Shown here one piece after another: positions 1 to 6,036 of a DNA stretch of 57,485 nt. Each line of letters begins with the position of its first letter. The stretch's first letter is position 1. Both the position numbers and the translations under genes were made by a program. The notes under the pieces were generated by a model that saw only the letters and a list, made by a program, of their open reading frames with translations, made no database searches and was not told the DNA's origin. The DNA is from a virus: the IMG/VR virus record IMGVR_UViG_3300047476_001238, positions 79,712-137,196 of that record. The stretch is one strand, 5' to 3'.

Positions 1-1148
1 TAATTTTCCTTTGATAAATTCCTACTTAGTAGTTTTTTGTACTCTTCTAAACTTTGTGCTTTTGGGGCACAGAACCCACACATACAAATGTCTTTTACAC
101 ATTTTATAATAGGAGGCTCAGTGCTGTCAAGTTGTATTTTTAATTGTTTTAATATAGATTGGTAATTATTTAGATTGCCCAATGGTTCGACCCGACCTGT
201 TGTGCTGGTTTTGCAATCTTTGTTTGTGAATACTGCGCCATCCAGTTGCCTTACAAATAGAAAAAACCAATTTACACTACAATACCAATCCTTGAAACCT
301 TGTTTTGGTACATACGACGCACAAGATTTTAAATCTCCATTGAGACTGAGTTTTCTGCCACCACAACAAGGTCTTCCTTGATCAATGCTTGATACTTCAC
401 TTTTTTGTTCTGTGATGTTGATAAATTTCTGATACTGATCTTTTTTTGATTCCGGTACTTCACCAATCCAAAATGTTTTTAATTTTGAAAATTGTTCAGC
501 CGAGTATTTCCATTCTGGTCCAGAATTGTCAAGCGGTTTTAGTACATATCGAATATTATTGTCCTTACAGAACTGTACCAAGGATTCAGCATCTTCGAAT
601 AATTCTTTGTTGTTGTGCATCATAACAGCACATTTAAATCGCTTGTTTTGCGACTTGAGATACATGATGTTATCTTTGTACTGTTGTTTTTGTTTGGGTA
701 AACTTTCCGAATGATAACTCATTGTAAAATCATCAACTAGCGAAACTATCCGTTCCCATTGATTTTTTCCTACTACCCCGTTTGTGGTACATGCAATAGT
801 AAGATGCCATTTGTCTTTGAACGGCTGATACCTATTTCTACATTCTTTTAATATTTCAACTATGTCTGGATGAAACAAACTTTCACCACCGTAGACGTTT
901 AGTATAACTTTTCGTTGGCTGGGTTTTTTATGTTGCATGTATAAATCAACATACTGGTACATAAAATCAATAGTTTGTAAACATTGTTCTTTTGGTGGAT
1001 GCTTGGTTGTGTTATCGTGTCCACCATCGATACCTTGAGCGCAATAACTGCAATCAAGATTGCAAAGCTTGGTCAATTCCCAATCCAGTAAAAATGCAGG
1101 AACATTGGTTGGATCTAGTGCAAATGCTATTGAATTTACTTCATCCAT
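1..1148 (-). CDS. Radical SAM protein with C-terminal SPASM-like Cys cluster (3' end outside window)
   Basis: The frame is open from an ATG at 1148 to the window edge, about 382 codons, so the 3' end is missing. Residues 29-36 read CNLDCSYC, the CxxxCxxC signature that binds the radical-SAM [4Fe-4S] cluster. A YGGES segment follows, equivalent to the GGE(P) SAM-contacting motif. The C-terminal third has many cysteines (PCCGG, CMCGFC), as in SPASM/twitch domains that hold auxiliary Fe-S clusters. The start codon lies inside the end of the upstream radical-SAM gene (8-nt overlap), which implies translational coupling. The family makes a 5'-deoxyadenosyl radical to modify a substrate; the substrate here is unknown. 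It is the last visible member of a five-gene operon downstream of gp32. Confidence 0.85.
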   Translation of the reverse strand, partial: MDEVNSIAFALDPTNVPAFLLDWELTKLCNLDCSYCAQGIDGGHDNTTKHPPKEQCLQTIDFMYQYVDLYMQHKKPSQRKVILNVYGGESLFHPDIVEILKECRNRYQPFKDKWHLTIACTTNGVVGKNQWERIVSLVDDFTMSYHSESLPKQKQQYKDNIMYLKSQNKRFKCAVMMHNNKELFEDAESLVQFCKDNNIRYVLKPLDNSGPEWKYSAEQFSKLKTFWIGEVPESKKDQYQKFINITEQKSEVSSIDQGRPCCGGRKLSLNGDLKSCASYVPKQGFKDWYCSVNWFFLFVRQLDGAVFTNKDCKTSTTGRVEPLGNLNNYQSILKQLKIQLDSTEPPIIKCVKDICMCGFCAPKAQSLEEYKKLLSRNLSKEN

Positions 1149-2289
1149 ATTGATACAATTCTTTAAAAATGTTCTTACTGTTTAGTCCTCGACGAGTGTC
1201 AATCTGTTCAATCATTTCAAATGCCTGAGCTAGATTTTTTACTATGGGTTTATCTAGACACAATGCAAGATTTCTATAACTGTTTTCTAACAAAAATCCT
1301 GGCAATTGATTTATACGATTATGCAGCTCGTTTTTAATTGTGTCTAACACACTGTCTGGCAGATGCCGTATATCTAGATATCCAGGATTGGTCACTGGTC
1401 CAATAATAAAACTGTTATTATGAAATCCTAATCCTTTTAAAAAATCAATACAATCAAATAGCGATCGATGATTTAACAAAAAATGCAACATGTTAAATGA
1501 AATTTTATGATTTAAACTTTTAATGGTAGTTAAATTATCAACAAAGTCGTGCCATGATCCGCCGTATCTGATATATTCGTATTCTTCTTCAACAGTTTCT
1601 ACACTAACTGTCCAATGCACATTTTTGAATTTACAGATCAATTCAAATATTTTTGTGTCGACTTTACTTAAATTTGTATTAACACGTAAATTTACATCTG
1701 GATTATCTACATACAGATGTTCGAGTAATTCTAAATTTTCTTTCATTAACAATGGCTCGCCGCCAGCTAGATAAACGTGCTTTAGTTTCTTGGCGCTGCC
1801 TAATATATAGTCTTTGAATTGTTGTCTTTGTTGATCGGTAGGTACAGGTATTTTTACATTTAATTCGTTAGCCCATCGGCTGCTAAAATCTGGTCCGCAA
1901 TAAACACAGGCCATATTGCACAAATTGGTCCAACGTACATCAACTGTGTGTAAATCAAATTTATCTGGCTGTTGATAAAGAGTCAGCGGAACTTGTTTTA
2001 ATTCTCGCAAATAAAATACTCGGTCACTGATAATATCAAATTTATTTTTCTCCTGCTCTAATTCATAACAAGGAAAACAATTTGAGCCAGGACTATTACC
2101 AATCATTTTGGTTCGAGTTTCAGTATTTTTAAATCCGTTTACTATCTCTTGTATAGAATTGTTTTGAATATTGCCAATTGGTCCTGCACTCCTGATACAG
2201 TTTTTTACATTGCCATCAAAATTGTACATCAGCCCAGTCCATGGCATGGGGCAAAAATTACGATTGGTTAGATATTCTTTGCTATCCAT
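1141..2289 (-). CDS. Radical SAM protein, N-terminal SPASM/twitch-like region
   Basis: This is a 382-residue protein. Residues 124-131 read CNMACVYC (CxxxCxxC cluster motif) and residues 176-179 read GGEP, so it is a radical SAM enzyme. The N-terminal 80 residues have the look of a SPASM/twitch region: FCPMPW near residue 12, C31 after a DGNV turn, a GNI..NSIQEI stretch, and CFPC at 71-74. The auxiliary cysteines therefore precede the catalytic core, the reverse of the usual order. The ATG at 2289 overlaps the stop of the upstream SDR gene by 8 nt, and its own stop overlaps the next radical-SAM start. The substrate is unknown. Proteins of this layout are known from marine phage genomes, where their role is also unclear. 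Confidence 0.88.
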   Translation of the reverse strand: MDSKEYLTNRNFCPMPWTGLMYNFDGNVKNCIRSAGPIGNIQNNSIQEIVNGFKNTETRTKMIGNSPGSNCFPCYELEQEKNKFDIISDRVFYLRELKQVPLTLYQQPDKFDLHTVDVRWTNLCNMACVYCGPDFSSRWANELNVKIPVPTDQQRQQFKDYILGSAKKLKHVYLAGGEPLLMKENLELLEHLYVDNPDVNLRVNTNLSKVDTKIFELICKFKNVHWTVSVETVEEEYEYIRYGGSWHDFVDNLTTIKSLNHKISFNMLHFLLNHRSLFDCIDFLKGLGFHNNSFIIGPVTNPGYLDIRHLPDSVLDTIKNELHNRINQLPGFLLENSYRNLALCLDKPIVKNLAQAFEMIEQIDTRRGLNSKNIFKELYQYG

Positions 2290-2827
2290 AATTTACGCCC
2301 AAAGATATTTCACTTACCTCCAAGTTAGGACCAGCATCTAATATTGCTATCAACTGAGCTGCCCATTCGTTTACATCGGCATAGGGCCTGGGGGCAGTTT
2401 GACCTGGCTGTGTAGCAACTGCGCCTGGCTTGACCAAACAAATTTTTGGACCAGTGTGAAAATTTTTCAATTGCGAAACAGCTTCCTCTAAAGATTTTTT
2501 CTGCACATAGTATTCGGTCATTTCTATTCCGGGCAACACACTCACAGGCAAAGAAGTGAGCATGGTACTGATATTGATAATTTTTTTATTGGGTTGCTGT
2601 TGCCACAATTTGTACACTGCAAACAGTAGTTCAGTTTGAGCGAACCCTACTTGTGCATTGTTAATAAAAATATCACAAGATTCAATTGCGGAAGCCACTT
2701 TGGTAATACTTCTAATGTTATATCCGTTGCGTCTACTCAAGCCAACAATTTCATGTCCGTTGCTGGCATATATTTCTGCCAATGCCTGACCTATACCTGC
2801 TGTATGACCTGTTATCGCTATTTTCAT
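2282..2827 (-). CDS. Short-chain dehydrogenase/reductase (SDR) family protein
   Basis: This 181-residue protein begins with a Rossmann nucleotide-binding motif TGHTAGIG (residues 6-13). It also has the structural NNA motif (56-58), a serine in the INIST segment (S87) and a YxxxK catalytic pair near Y107/K111. These are the classic SDR landmarks, so an NAD(P)-dependent oxidoreductase fold is expected. It is short for the family (usually about 250 residues) and has little substrate-binding C-terminal region. Its ATG follows directly on the TAA of the upstream radical-SAM gene (TAAATG), and its stop overlaps the next radical-SAM start, so it belongs to the same translationally coupled operon. 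It may act on the product of the radical-SAM enzymes; the substrate is unknown. Confidence 0.85.
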   Translation of the reverse strand: MKIAITGHTAGIGQALAEIYASNGHEIVGLSRRNGYNIRSITKVASAIESCDIFINNAQVGFAQTELLFAVYKLWQQQPNKKIINISTMLTSLPVSVLPGIEMTEYYVQKKSLEEAVSQLKNFHTGPKICLVKPGAVATQPGQTAPRPYADVNEWAAQLIAILDAGPNLEVSEISLGVNYG

Positions 2828-3772
2828 TTATAAGCCCCGCAATGTTTTTTGTTCAGTGATAAATGCATCCAATTCTGTTTGATTATTTTTGTCTACTGAT
2901 ACTATACCTGGAAAAATATTTTTGTACGGAAGTGTTAAATTATTTTCGTACTTGACATTGATTGGATCAGGGCTATGCAAAAATGCATACGAGTGTGCCA
3001 GTTGATGATCGGCTGTAAATTGTTTAATAGCTGTAAAGTTATGGATATTTAATGCACTGACTGTGGTCCATGTATTTAAATCTAACTTATCTATTGCTTG
3101 GTAATGCATTAAATTTTTATAAAAATTATCCCACTTGATAGGCCAACGTACAAAATCGTGTGTTTCTTCAATCCCGTCTAAGCTGACTGTGACAGTTATT
3201 TTAATTCCTCTATTGATCAATTCCTCTATTTCATCAATTATTATTGAACCGTTGGTATTGATTCTAATAGATTTAACATTGGGAGGAGGATTTTTTAAAA
3301 TGTTCTTATAATTTTTACTTGCACTGGGTTCGCCGCCATTGACGTCCAGATGTACTATTCTATCCATTGGCAAATTCCAAAACTTAGAGGAATTGTCCAC
3401 AATTGGATATATTCGTGATTTTAAACTACCAATCTTGGTACTGTGGGTTTCGTTGCAGGTCATGCATCCACTATTACAAATATTGTCAAGCACTCCGCCC
3501 ACAATGAGATAGTCTGGTTGTGTTTGTGTTTGATCAAATTGAATCGCATTCAATCTGATGCTGGTATTTTCGGCTGTTTCGGTCTGCTTGCATCTCAGAC
3601 ACTCTGCAGGCCATAGCCCCTTATGCATATACAATTTTGCATTGCGTAGCCAGAGACTTTGATCCATTTCTTCCATGGAATCAAATTGAGGTGCATTGAC
3701 CATGTGTCCGCAACGACTCACTGTTCCGTTAGAATTAAATCGAACAAAATGACTTAGTCTAGGACATCGCAT
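2828..3772 (-). CDS. Radical SAM protein, N-terminal auxiliary Cys region
   Basis: This is a 314-residue protein. Residues 99-106 read CNSGCMTC (CxxxCxxC) and 146-149 read GGEP, the radical-SAM core signatures. Upstream of the core lie C3, C21 and a C58xxC61 pair, which could ligate an additional Fe-S cluster. This is the same auxiliary-first arrangement as in the radical-SAM gene at 1141-2289, although overall similarity is low. A TVSLDG segment fits a later beta strand of the partial TIM barrel. The start at 3772 overlaps the sulfotransferase-like gene by 19 nt. It is the second gene of the operon after gp32. Substrate not predictable from sequence. Confidence 0.85.
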   Translation of the reverse strand: MRCPRLSHFVRFNSNGTVSRCGHMVNAPQFDSMEEMDQSLWLRNAKLYMHKGLWPAECLRCKQTETAENTSIRLNAIQFDQTQTQPDYLIVGGVLDNICNSGCMTCNETHSTKIGSLKSRIYPIVDNSSKFWNLPMDRIVHLDVNGGEPSASKNYKNILKNPPPNVKSIRINTNGSIIIDEIEELINRGIKITVTVSLDGIEETHDFVRWPIKWDNFYKNLMHYQAIDKLDLNTWTTVSALNIHNFTAIKQFTADHQLAHSYAFLHSPDPINVKYENNLTLPYKNIFPGIVSVDKNNQTELDAFITEQKTLRGL

Positions 3773-4362
3773 AAATCCATGCTCCGTTGAACAACTTCTT
3801 TGTATACTTCAGGATAACGATGTTGAATCGTTTGTACAATTAATTTAAATGGTACAGTTTTTCCCAATAGGTCTTCAGTTAATACTTTATCAATGGACAA
3901 ATAAAAATGTAGCTTTTCTGTATTAACAGCTTCATCTAACAATGGATCTTGACTTTGGTTAAATTTTAGTGAGGTAATATCCGACAATGCGTCTATAGAA
4001 TTAATTCTAATTTTGGCACGAGTAAATCGTTGCAAATTTACTAGCCAATGAAACTGCGGACAAAAATGTCTGTTTAGAAAAAGATAATTGTTAACGAAGT
4101 GCAGTACTGTGGCTCTATCAAGATTGTTGTTGTGCTGTAAAAATGTATTTACACCAGTGACAAAGCGATCGTAAGGGTTGCGAACATAAATGTCCACTAC
4201 TGAAATATTGGGCAATTCATCATGATTCACAAGTCTAAATCCTGAATTATATAAACTGCTACTGCCGTTTTTATATATAGGATAGACATACCGTTGTGAC
4301 GGTACTATTTCTAGCACATCACAACGGTCCGGGAATATAATGTTATCTAGCTGCGATAACAT
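3754..4362 (-). CDS. Sulfotransferase-like protein
   Basis: This 202-residue protein has two segments typical of PAPS-dependent sulfotransferases. PIYKNGSSSL (residues 28-37) resembles the 5'-phosphosulfate-binding P-loop-like motif. YVRNPYDRF (59-67) resembles the 3'-phosphate-binding motif. The family transfers a sulfuryl group from PAPS to hydroxyls or amines on sugars, peptides or lipids. It lacks a signal peptide and is shorter than most family members. It begins 8 nt after the gp32 stop and its 3' end overlaps the next radical-SAM gene by 19 nt, so it is the promoter-proximal member of the five-gene island. Function is a family-level inference; acceptor unknown. Confidence 0.65.
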   Translation of the reverse strand: MLSQLDNIIFPDRCDVLEIVPSQRYVYPIYKNGSSSLYNSGFRLVNHDELPNISVVDIYVRNPYDRFVTGVNTFLQHNNNLDRATVLHFVNNYLFLNRHFCPQFHWLVNLQRFTRAKIRINSIDALSDITSLKFNQSQDPLLDEAVNTEKLHFYLSIDKVLTEDLLGKTVPFKLIVQTIQHRYPEVYKEVVQRSMDLCDVLD

Positions 4363-4370
4363 TAAACGCC

Positions 4371-5372
4371 TTATTTGCTACGGTTTCGAATCATGGCCAA
4401 GATATCCTCGGCTTTCTGACTTGAAGGTTTTGCAGCCGGTGTTTGCACAGGTGCAGTTGCTACTGGTGGCTCGTCATCCTCAAGATCCGGACTCACTGTT
4501 GGCACGAATGGAGCAGCGGGTGCTGCCTTTGCTACAGGAGTAGGTGCTGCGGATTCAGCTGCGTCATCGCTGCTCTTGCCGCCAGTAAAGCCGCTAGGCT
4601 TGAAGTATTGGCTCCAACGATCTGGATCATATGCTTGACCGTCTACGCTTGCTTCAAACATCTCTTTGATCACTTTGAGTTCAACTTCACCTGGACGTTT
4701 TGGTAGGAAGTCGCTCAAGTTGTATAGACCGTGTGAGTCAATTGCTGCTTGCTCTTGTGCAGTTAGAGCAGTCTCTTTGCGGCTCCACTTGCTGGTTGAG
4801 TAGTCTGCATATCCGCCTTTACTAGTCTTTGTGACAGTAAAATCCAGTCCAGCGGTGTAATCAGTAGGCATGCTTTCTAGTTCTGGGTCCATTAGTGCAG
4901 CCTTGATCAAATTAAAAATCTGTGGACTAATAACGAATCTGCGAATAGGATTCTCTGGTGACTTGTCATCCGCTAGAGGATTTTCTCTCACAAAACCTTG
5001 GAACAGATACGATTTCTTCTTCCAGTACTTACGACCCATTTCCTCAAGACCAGGGTCTTTGAACCATGTGCGTACTTCGGCTAGGATGGGGCAAGCGTCG
5101 CCATACATCTCAACACAAGGTACTTGTACAACAACAGGTTTACTATCAGATTGTCCTTTGATTCCTGCAAACGGCAGTCGAATCATTAGTCGCTCAACCC
5201 AGAAGAAGTCGTTCTTGGTATTTGCGTCTGGTAGGAAACGGATTTTTGCACTGGAACCTTCTGGAATGTTCCAGTGTGCGTAGATGGCGTTATCGCCTTG
5301 TGATTGTCCGCCTTGCGAACGAGTTTCTTGCGCTTGTAGTTTTGCGCGGATTTCTGCTAATGAAGTGGCCAT
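4371..5372 (-). CDS. 32: gp32-like single-stranded DNA-binding protein
   Basis: This 333-residue protein matches the T4 gp32 family. It has a basic N-terminal segment (cooperativity region), then an OB-fold core with IRFLPD, PFAGIKG, KKSYLFQGFV and FVISPQIFNLI. A disordered Ala/Pro-rich linker with an acidic DLEDDEPP patch follows. Unlike T4, the extreme C-terminus is basic (MIRNRSK). The T4 zinc site (His plus C-x9-C-x2-C) is eroded: only PC...GDACPIL remains and the last Cys is Leu, so zinc binding is doubtful. The protein coats ssDNA during replication, recombination and repair. An AAGGAG ribosome site precedes the ATG. The roughly 70-nt leader has a strong hairpin and two overlapping promoter-like elements, suggesting autoregulation as in T4. 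Confidence 0.88.
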   Translation of the reverse strand: MATSLAEIRAKLQAQETRSQGGQSQGDNAIYAHWNIPEGSSAKIRFLPDANTKNDFFWVERLMIRLPFAGIKGQSDSKPVVVQVPCVEMYGDACPILAEVRTWFKDPGLEEMGRKYWKKKSYLFQGFVRENPLADDKSPENPIRRFVISPQIFNLIKAALMDPELESMPTDYTAGLDFTVTKTSKGGYADYSTSKWSRKETALTAQEQAAIDSHGLYNLSDFLPKRPGEVELKVIKEMFEASVDGQAYDPDRWSQYFKPSGFTGGKSSDDAAESAAPTPVAKAAPAAPFVPTVSPDLEDDEPPVATAPVQTPAAKPSSQKAEDILAMIRNRSK

Positions 5373-5472: not shown

Positions 5473-6036
5473 TTATTTTTTTAACTTGTAGGTACCAAAA
5501 TTGGTATAGCTTGAAACTCTAAATTGCTGCACCGGTGCGAGCATGCCGTGCCATTGTAATGGTTGACTTCCATCTTGATTTGGTCCATTCAACATTAGAT
5601 ACCCAGAGTTTGCTTTGAACTTGCATTGATATTTTACACAATTTGCGTTCTTGAACTCAAAAAATGTAGTACCGTAATTGTCAGAATCAGCGGCCCAATA
5701 TATTTGCATACTAGCTGGCAGGTGCCCATCGGTATGTATCGGAACAATAAAATTTGGTTCGTCGTACCACCACATGGTAAACGGATAATACTCGAATTGA
5801 ATTCCCAATTCTTGTTCAATTTGAATCTTATTTTTTAAAACTTGATCATCAAATTTTTGAAAAAGTTCAAAATTTGAAATGTCTAATTGTCGACGTCGCC
5901 AAGTTTCTTGTTGTTCACCTCTGGTCCACTGAATATTGTCCCAGTTTGTATCAAGAACTCGTTCAGCCAAATCGTTTGGTAAAAAATTTTCAACGGAGAA
6001 TAGTCGGTAGTCTTTGTCTACCGGCTTAATAATCAT
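5473..6036 (-). CDS. 2-oxoglutarate/Fe(II)-dependent oxygenase-like protein
   Basis: This 187-residue protein has the facial-triad arrangement of 2OG-Fe(II) dioxygenases: H101-x-D103 in PIHTDGH, a distal H163 in QWHG, and R173 in FRVSSY as the likely 2-oxoglutarate anchor. Predicted strands around IYWAA and GTTFFEF fit a double-stranded beta-helix. Phage members of the superfamily hydroxylate proteins or nucleobases; which applies here is unknown. It lies 2 nt downstream of the upstream gene and 100 nt before gp32, which has its own promoter. Together with the radical-SAM/SDR/sulfotransferase genes it makes the flank of gp32 rich in modification enzymes. Confidence 0.65.
   Translation of the reverse strand: MIIKPVDKDYRLFSVENFLPNDLAERVLDTNWDNIQWTRGEQQETWRRRQLDISNFELFQKFDDQVLKNKIQIEQELGIQFEYYPFTMWWYDEPNFIVPIHTDGHLPASMQIYWAADSDNYGTTFFEFKNANCVKYQCKFKANSGYLMLNGPNQDGSQPLQWHGMLAPVQQFRVSSYTNFGTYKLKK

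Follow-up and report, generated by a model that had tools for sequence, protein, structure and literature searches.

What do the tailoring-enzyme genes lodged beside the single-stranded DNA-binding protein gene of a large bacterial virus make, and do they act as one pathway? The window, by which we mean the whole stretch of DNA that was analysed (57,485 nucleotides), comes from a virus record 137 kb long, and the genes in question lie at its beginning.

4371..5372, minus strand: gp32, single-stranded DNA-binding protein (phrog_1192, 2.8e-69), the upstream flank of the module
3754..4362, minus strand: ST, sulfotransferase-like, 202 aa, core member
2828..3772, minus strand: rSAM_C, radical-SAM protein with N-terminal extra cysteines, 314 aa, core member
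2282..2827, minus strand: SDR, short-chain dehydrogenase/reductase-like, 181 aa, core member
1141..2289, minus strand: rSAM_B, N-twitch radical-SAM protein, 382 aa, core member
1..1148, continuing past position 1, minus strand: rSAM_A, radical-SAM protein with C-terminal extra cysteines, accessory
5473..6036, minus strand: 2OG-oxygenase-like gene across gp32 (HxD...H...R), distinct from the module gene X described below

A preliminary description had read this locus as a translationally coupled operon of five genes in one orientation, and the gene identities, coordinates and shared strand were confirmed. All of its junctions were reproduced as well: ST and rSAM_C overlap by 19 nt, rSAM_C and SDR meet in a direct TAAATG, and the SDR/rSAM_B and rSAM_B/rSAM_A junctions are overlaps of 8 nt each. 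The gap between the end of gp32 and the start of ST is 8 nt. Extraction of the record past position 1 revealed that the operon continues unbroken to uvsX; the stop of rSAM_A lies at G000:79702, ten bases beyond the window edge, and the gene shares 8 nt with uvsX, which starts at G000:79709. The genes gp32, ST, rSAM_C, SDR, rSAM_B, rSAM_A and uvsX form a single unbroken run, and the block may be co-expressed with gp32 and uvsX. In the same record, another radical-SAM gene is flanked by genes for a Toprim protein and a DnaB-type helicase, and the helicase is in turn followed by a twitch radical-SAM gene.

The gene order is not a matter of chance, since it recurs in dozens of viral contigs. Dropping the loci with a repeated last 250 amino acids left 87 distinct rSAM_C, and 62 of these were taken as full intervals, with gp32 at most four genes upstream and UvsX at most seven downstream, so the position of the 62 between gp32 and uvsX is partly due to selection. 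ST is present in all 62 of these distinct contigs, where it always overlaps rSAM_C (median 19 nt), rSAM_B in 60 and SDR in 59, while rSAM_A is found in 4; gene X, a further gene with a 2OG-oxygenase fold that is absent from the window, occurs in about half (30/62). Similarly, ST accompanies rSAM_C in 83/83 contigs having at least 700 nt upstream, and SDR and rSAM_B are present in 53 and 55 of the 56 contigs with at least 3.5 kb downstream. L143 was scored as lacking SDR, and the opposite-strand ORF picked there may hide one; at the remaining rSAM_C loci an absent flank coincides with a short contig, except at L181. The scans used degenerate patterns, gave at least 600 rows in one case and retained the best 80 loci at most, and the 8/69 obtained in the UvsX scan on this basis is not a population rate. 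L104 has an ST homologue standing alone in the gp32-uvsX gap, L120 has an SDR-like gene at the head of another cassette, and L014 retains ST and rSAM_C only.

Because of the counts in the 62 intervals, the conserved unit is ST-rSAM_C-SDR-rSAM_B, with rSAM_A as an accessory, and there is good support for treating the module as a single unit. The proposed five-gene pathway therefore holds in so far as the genes co-occur and are not isolated auxiliaries, but it shrinks to four genes with rSAM_A optional. The module genes are under purifying selection, with median dN/dS values of 0.075-0.119 (11-16 pairs per gene) versus 0.072-0.091 for UvsX and gp32, and their gene distances correlate (Mantel r 0.29-0.71, with 0/999 permutations as high). 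Mean pairwise identity is 43% for ST, 62% for rSAM_C, 56% for SDR and 62% for rSAM_B. In a tree built from 12/43 rSAM_B and 12/49 rSAM_C rows, in which long branches were flagged, each of the two proteins occupies one side of a branch.

The radical-SAM proteins show no sign of degeneration, as their cluster cysteines are retained. Extra cysteines had been reported ahead of the CxxxCxxC core in two of the three, and these proved to be rSAM_B (C13, C31, C71 and C74, then C124xxxC128xxC131) and rSAM_C (C3, C21, C58 and C61, then C99xxxC103xxC106), while in rSAM_A they lie C-terminal to the core (C29xxxC33xxC36). All seven cysteines of rSAM_C are kept in 49/49 rows, the core cysteines of rSAM_B in 43/43 and those of rSAM_A in 9/9. 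rSAM_A (32.1 bits) and rSAM_B (61 bits) exceed the PF04055 cut-off of 29.5 bits and rSAM_C (24.4) falls below it, whereas the 170-bit cut-off of NF033640 (N_Twi_rSAM) is passed by rSAM_B (257.7) and is not reached by rSAM_C (122.7) or rSAM_A (35.6). rSAM_C nevertheless shares the layout of this family, with extra cysteines before the core; the family record is shown without an assigned substrate. Residues 12-87 of the rSAM_B profile match the C-terminal twitch domain of the radical-SAM dehydrogenase BtrN (4m7s, 1.3e-4; 4m7t, 1.6e-4), a likeness limited to that domain, which in rSAM_B precedes the radical-SAM core. The best PDB sequence match of rSAM_C is the sactipeptide synthase SkfB (6efn, 3.3e-7), which is also matched by the rSAM_B profile (1.4e-5).

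The name of ST leans on its motifs and on a predicted fold of moderate strength. K31, R61 and S/T69 are each invariant (52/52) and lie in motifs resembling PAPS-binding ones, where we take the Lys to belong to the 5'-phosphosulfate loop and the Arg and Ser/Thr to the 3'-phosphate site, and PAPS would be the probable donor. Compared with PAPS-dependent sulfotransferases, ST is 202 aa long and its window copy matches no Pfam family at E<=1. It does not reach the 22-bit cut-off of Sulfotransfer_2 (PF03567), a family weakly matched by 4/50 ST relatives (best E 0.0093) and by the ST homologue of L104 (17.5 bits). The ST profile had no credible PDB sequence match, and Foldseek with the ST model (50/52 alignment rows, pLDDT 89.4) returned nothing significant. 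In a second look with VIA, 18 of 22 rows were sulfotransferases, led by heparan-sulfate 3-O-sulfotransferases (Z 6.1, 5.4 and 5.3), the best Z of 6.1 being of a size that VIA itself describes as common. SDR possesses both a glycine-rich nucleotide motif and YxxxK, with G7, G11, G13, Y106 and K110 in 44/44 rows and S87 in 42/44; it scores 22.5 bits against PF01370, above the 20.9 cut-off, and 22.6 against PF00106, under the cut-off of 26.6.

Gene X is predicted, with good support from its model, to adopt a 2-oxoglutarate oxygenase fold. H76, D78, H151 and R163, which form the HxD...H triad and the distal Arg, are present in 25/25 proteins, and the model (24/25 rows, pLDDT 96.9) matches double-stranded beta-helix folds, the closest being a nucleoside-antibiotic hydroxylase (Z 12.0); its neighbours also include AlkB, prolyl hydroxylases and aspartyl hydroxylases. 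The X profile had no credible PDB sequence match, and the X alignment found nothing elsewhere in the window's record, an empty result that carries no weight without a positive control. The 2OG-oxygenase-like gene that had been noted beyond gp32 is likewise sound, keeping H101, D103, H163 and R173 in 10/10 family rows; that it is a relocated gene X was dropped because the two show no mutual profile match.

Taken together, we tentatively read the block as a tailoring pathway, inherited vertically and with translationally coupled genes, whose product would be a sulfated modified sugar or glycan, a reading to which we give not quite an even chance. The two N-twitch radical-SAM enzymes would abstract hydrogen atoms from a sugar or another small hydroxylated substrate, in a BtrN-like oxidation, an epimerisation or a coupling, and SDR might then oxidise or reduce the resulting carbonyl. 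Where X is present, its oxygenase could hydroxylate the substrate, and ST would transfer sulfate from host PAPS onto a hydroxyl, so that a sulfated modified sugar or glycan would end up on virions or on infected cells. As substrate, a sugar, glycan or small molecule seems slightly favoured over protein, and a DNA base less likely, because the rSAM_B profile matches the BtrN twitch, the ST model is nearest to heparan-sulfate 3-O-sulfotransferases and X is nearest to a nucleoside-antibiotic hydroxylase, and because of the sugar genes in the record (epimerases, cytidylyltransferases, GT9, GT17, PIG-L and a C-methyltransferase) and the carbamoyltransferase beside a twitch-rSAM array in G002. Against this, the module contains no glycosyltransferase or sugar-activating gene, and large phages commonly carry sugar genes, which in this record are located elsewhere. 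The Foldseek result and common-range Z of ST, the AlkB, prolyl and aspartyl hydroxylase neighbours of X and the match of rSAM_C to a peptide-modifying enzyme also weigh on this side.

The same SkfB matches fit post-translational modification of a phage or host protein (a virion protein, a tail fibre or a takeover target) by radical oxidation or crosslinking, hydroxylation by X and sulfation by ST, which we regard as a serious though doubtful alternative. Many SPASM/twitch enzymes act on peptides, and weak matches to Asp_Arg_Hydrox (PF05118) were obtained for 3/24 X proteins, the best at 0.0082. Radical-SAM genes of other phages are reported among structural or host-recognition genes (PMC12390700, PMC7029224). 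However, as had been noted, no precursor peptide was seen: the module genes overlap and leave no room for a RiPP-style precursor inside the interval, although one could lie at a distance. The 73-aa ORF after uvsX was rejected as a precursor, as it occurs both with (40/55) and without (24/47) the module, and the sole PqqD match among 50 ST proteins (0.0086) looks like chance.

A modified nucleotide or DNA base is an improbable product. The block does sit between gp32 and uvsX, other radical-SAM genes of the record flank its DnaB-type helicase, and X resembles AlkB among others; on the other side, a thymidylate-synthase-type gene (PF00303) was not found in the record, which is possibly a fragment, T4-like phages often have insertions between replication genes, and we know of no DNA base that needs this enzyme set. 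Least probable is that the genes share no pathway and the gp32-uvsX gap is a hot spot gathering unrelated tailoring genes, as the other genes of at least 150 aa in 12/69 intervals and rSAM_A without the module in 3/69 (best 80 loci at most), together with the lone, displaced or reduced genes of L104, L120 and L014, might suggest, since the same four genes keep their order and overlaps despite 43-62% mean pairwise identity.

Radical-SAM genes are already known from phages, mostly without an assigned role. At this locus, two radical-SAM genes, SDR and a sulfotransferase-like gene, often with a 2OG oxygenase, form a fixed set that occupies one site in dozens of distinct contigs; with dN/dS near that of gp32 and UvsX, this conserved set argues strongly, on genomic grounds, that the product is needed by a phage lineage. 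Beyond the sugar or glycan reading, it is conceivable, if somewhat unlikely, that a dedicated pathway, forming a stable component of the replication region in an uncultured branch of giant-phage relatives, yields a previously undescribed sulfated, radical-modified molecule of the virion, host surface or DNA, and that this pathway is inherited with gp32 and uvsX instead of having been taken up as an isolated gene of host metabolism. With a minimal gene set defined, the function of phage radical-SAM and sulfotransferase genes becomes testable.

Dozens of uncultured viruses related to giant bacterial viruses keep the block together, but searches of cultured viruses did not find it; ST, rSAM_B and rSAM_C had no close match among 50,697 records of cultured phages. 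A genome scan with the rSAM_B alignment gave seven loci at 22-26% identity, six in Bdellovibrionota-type MAGs and one in a 'bacterium'. The MAG arrays (L171-L176) carry twitch-rSAM genes beside rSAM_A-like genes, as the phage block does, and in L171 an SDR-profile match adjoins the array; the seven loci were rejected as the module because they have no ST or X profile match. Aeromonas phage 332-Vera and the pelagimyophages are radical-SAM-rich and, like the window phage, have several such genes per genome, but these sit in structural or host-recognition regions, and the text concerned describes no such ST/SDR module (PMC12390700, PMC7029224). Five cultured relatives (Phosso, CBB, Atu_ph07, Vibrio 2.275.O and XbC2) share with the window phage the order terminase, structural gene, ssDNA-binding protein and UvsX, but their gp32 and uvsX are adjacent with no gene between them, and each genome has 0-4 PF04055 matches, none above the N_Twi cut-off. 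Their UvsX is 67-69% identical to that of the window phage, and the module is best assigned to large T4-like phages of an uncultured branch, with these five as the nearest relatives by UvsX.

On the minus strand of the window, a sulfotransferase-like gene (ST), three radical-SAM genes (rSAM_A, rSAM_B and rSAM_C) and a short-chain dehydrogenase/reductase-like gene (SDR) occupy the positions and show the junctions that the preliminary description had claimed. The window corresponds to G000:79712-137196, within a virus record of 137,196 bases. The gp32 gene (phrog_1192, 2.8e-69) lies upstream of ST and ends 8 nt ahead of it, while past position 1 rSAM_A has its stop ten bases outside the window and overlaps the start of uvsX; thus a single tight run extends from gp32 through the five genes to uvsX. 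The encoded UvsX shares 67–69% identity with the RecA/UvsX proteins of the closest large cultured phages examined.

Viral contigs were collected by four scans, and their ORFs were labelled with BLAST and with profiles built in this analysis. The collection holds 87 distinct rSAM_C genes, and ST is found close upstream of rSAM_C in 83 of the 83 contigs having at least 700 nt there; among the 56 that extend 3.5 kb or more downstream, SDR is present in 53 and rSAM_B in 55. In the 62 contigs with both flanks, the gp32–UvsX interval always contains ST and rSAM_C, nearly always rSAM_B (60) and SDR (59), and in 30 cases X, a 2OG-oxygenase-fold gene, with rSAM_A present in 4. The exact order is ST-rSAM_C-X-SDR-rSAM_B in 22 intervals and ST-rSAM_C-SDR-rSAM_B in 20, and ST overlaps rSAM_C in all 62 by a median of 19 nt, the value seen in the window. 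Individual contigs retain ST and rSAM_C only (L014), lack rSAM_B (L180, with L057 and L059) or SDR (L045, L043), carry the halves of the module in swapped order (L082) or place X ahead of rSAM_C (L181). The small pathway proposed earlier is right in kind, as ST, rSAM_C, SDR and rSAM_B occur together in dozens of contigs, but its membership comes down to these four core genes with rSAM_A optional, and its list lacks the frequent partner X, which is missing in the window.

The gap between gp32 and uvsX is not always filled in this way. Among the best 80 loci kept from a UvsX scan, 69 carry both flanks, and their gap is empty (110 nt or less) in 25, holds small ORFs only in 21, other genes in 12, rSAM_A without the module in 3 and the module in 8. 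Since gp32 and uvsX also adjoin directly in five cultured relatives, the gap is an insertion site where, in one branch, a particular module is now stably established. In 50,697 cultured-phage records, tblastn found no match to rSAM_C or rSAM_B at E<=1e-5, or to ST or X at E<=0.01, these four being the queries used; at E<=10 rSAM_B matched 66 records, with about 21–23% identity among the matches listed. At L120:2369-5582 the gap is filled by another four-gene cassette (an SDR-like and three unknown proteins), and gene lengths are nearly the same in L123 and L124. At L101:8038-9967 and L108:2395-4369, a 272–273 aa protein without a Pfam match stands immediately ahead of rSAM_A, and is perhaps its partner, missing in the window phage. 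Downstream of uvsX, three contigs (L179, L185, L192) encode small cysteine-rich proteins (101–106 aa) which, on visual inspection, look like a stand-alone SPASM domain; a Pfam search with one of them gave no match.

rSAM_B scores above the NF033640 cut-off, whereas rSAM_C shares its layout but scores below. In its N-terminal region, the rSAM_B profile matches the BtrN twitch domain, which supports the earlier remark that extra cysteines precede the core. Conservation is complete for C99/C103/C106 and C3/C21/C58/C61 of rSAM_C (49/49) and for C124/C128/C131 and C71/C74 of rSAM_B (43/43; C13/C31, 42/43). When 59 radical-SAM proteins were placed in a tree, the module's rSAM_B proteins made up one side of a branch (100/99), as did its rSAM_C proteins (100/100), and so two distinct radical-SAM lineages are retained side by side. 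SDR is short and keeps its catalytic residues (Y106/K110 in 44/44), and X, modelled from relatives (pLDDT 96.9), has a 2OG-oxygenase fold with H76/D78/H151/R163 conserved in 25/25. The window ST has no Pfam match, PF03567 matches weakly in 4 of 50 relatives, and Foldseek returned no hit with the ST structure, although this was predicted confidently (pLDDT 89.4). The VIA list for this model is headed by PAP-bound heparan-sulfate 3-O-sulfotransferases (Z 6.1, 5.4, 5.3), with sulfotransferases in 18 of 22 rows; together with the invariant K31/R61 (52/52) and S/T69 (52/52), this makes a PAPS-type sulfotransferase likely, though not proved. Median dN/dS, from few pairs per module gene, is 0.119 for ST, 0.084 for rSAM_C, 0.075 for SDR and 0.096 for rSAM_B, compared with 0.091 for gp32 and 0.072 for UvsX.

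This branch is rich in radical-SAM genes. The window's record has 7 PF04055 matches, and six further records that carry the module (55–145 kb) have 11, 13, 5, 4, 2 and 3; a 260 kb record (G007) has 14 without the module between gp32 and uvsX, so radical-SAM richness extends wider than the module. Three further non-module records have 0, 1 and 1, and the five cultured relatives 0–4. Arrays of similar enzyme types occur in Bdellovibrionota MAGs, and two module-bearing phage records have four or five radical-SAM genes of the twitch type arrayed together (L241:13092-19415; L242:7763-17092, near a carbamoyltransferase). The window's record (G000, sections L008–L011) also contains:

G000:16297-17430 (L008:16297-17430), a protein without a Pfam match, whose relatives recur next to arrays of radical-SAM genes in phage records (G001, G002) and in Bdellovibrionota MAGs (L172, L173, L177).
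G000:24717-27140 (L009:4717-7140), a radical-SAM gene that weakly matches B12-binding as well, flanked by Fe-S assembly genes (PF01521, IscA-type; PF01592, NifU/IscU-type).
G000:33580-38210 (L009:13580-18210), a radical-SAM gene with a Toprim primase-like gene on one side and a DnaB-type helicase on the other, and with a twitch radical-SAM gene after the helicase; a second place where such genes are interleaved among replication genes.
L010:11684-19306 and L011:5984-11077, a large nucleotide-sugar region with epimerases, a cytidylyltransferase, a PfkB-type kinase, and GT9, GT17 and sugar C-methyltransferase domains.

Given the flanking Fe-S assembly genes, the phage may supply clusters to its own radical-SAM enzymes.

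The module is a coupled, conserved enzyme set, in which rSAM_C and rSAM_B would oxidize or rearrange the substrate by radical chemistry, SDR would act on a carbonyl, X, where present, would hydroxylate, and ST would sulfate using host PAPS. The substrate is slightly more likely to be a sugar or other small hydroxylated molecule, judging by the proteins closest in fold to ST and X, by the match to BtrN, and by the presence of glycosyltransferase and nucleotide-sugar families in other parts of the record. The main rival is protein modification, to which the SkfB similarity of rSAM_B and rSAM_C points, as do radical-SAM genes placed among structural or host-recognition genes in other phages (PMC12390700, PMC7029224). 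DNA modification is suggested mainly by the position of the module.

A literature search of titles and abstract openings, with most subscription journals outside its coverage, found no description of the module, and the function of phage sulfotransferases is stated to remain unclear in PMC10580990. The module is a phage-borne tailoring gene cluster whose composition is unusual and strongly conserved.
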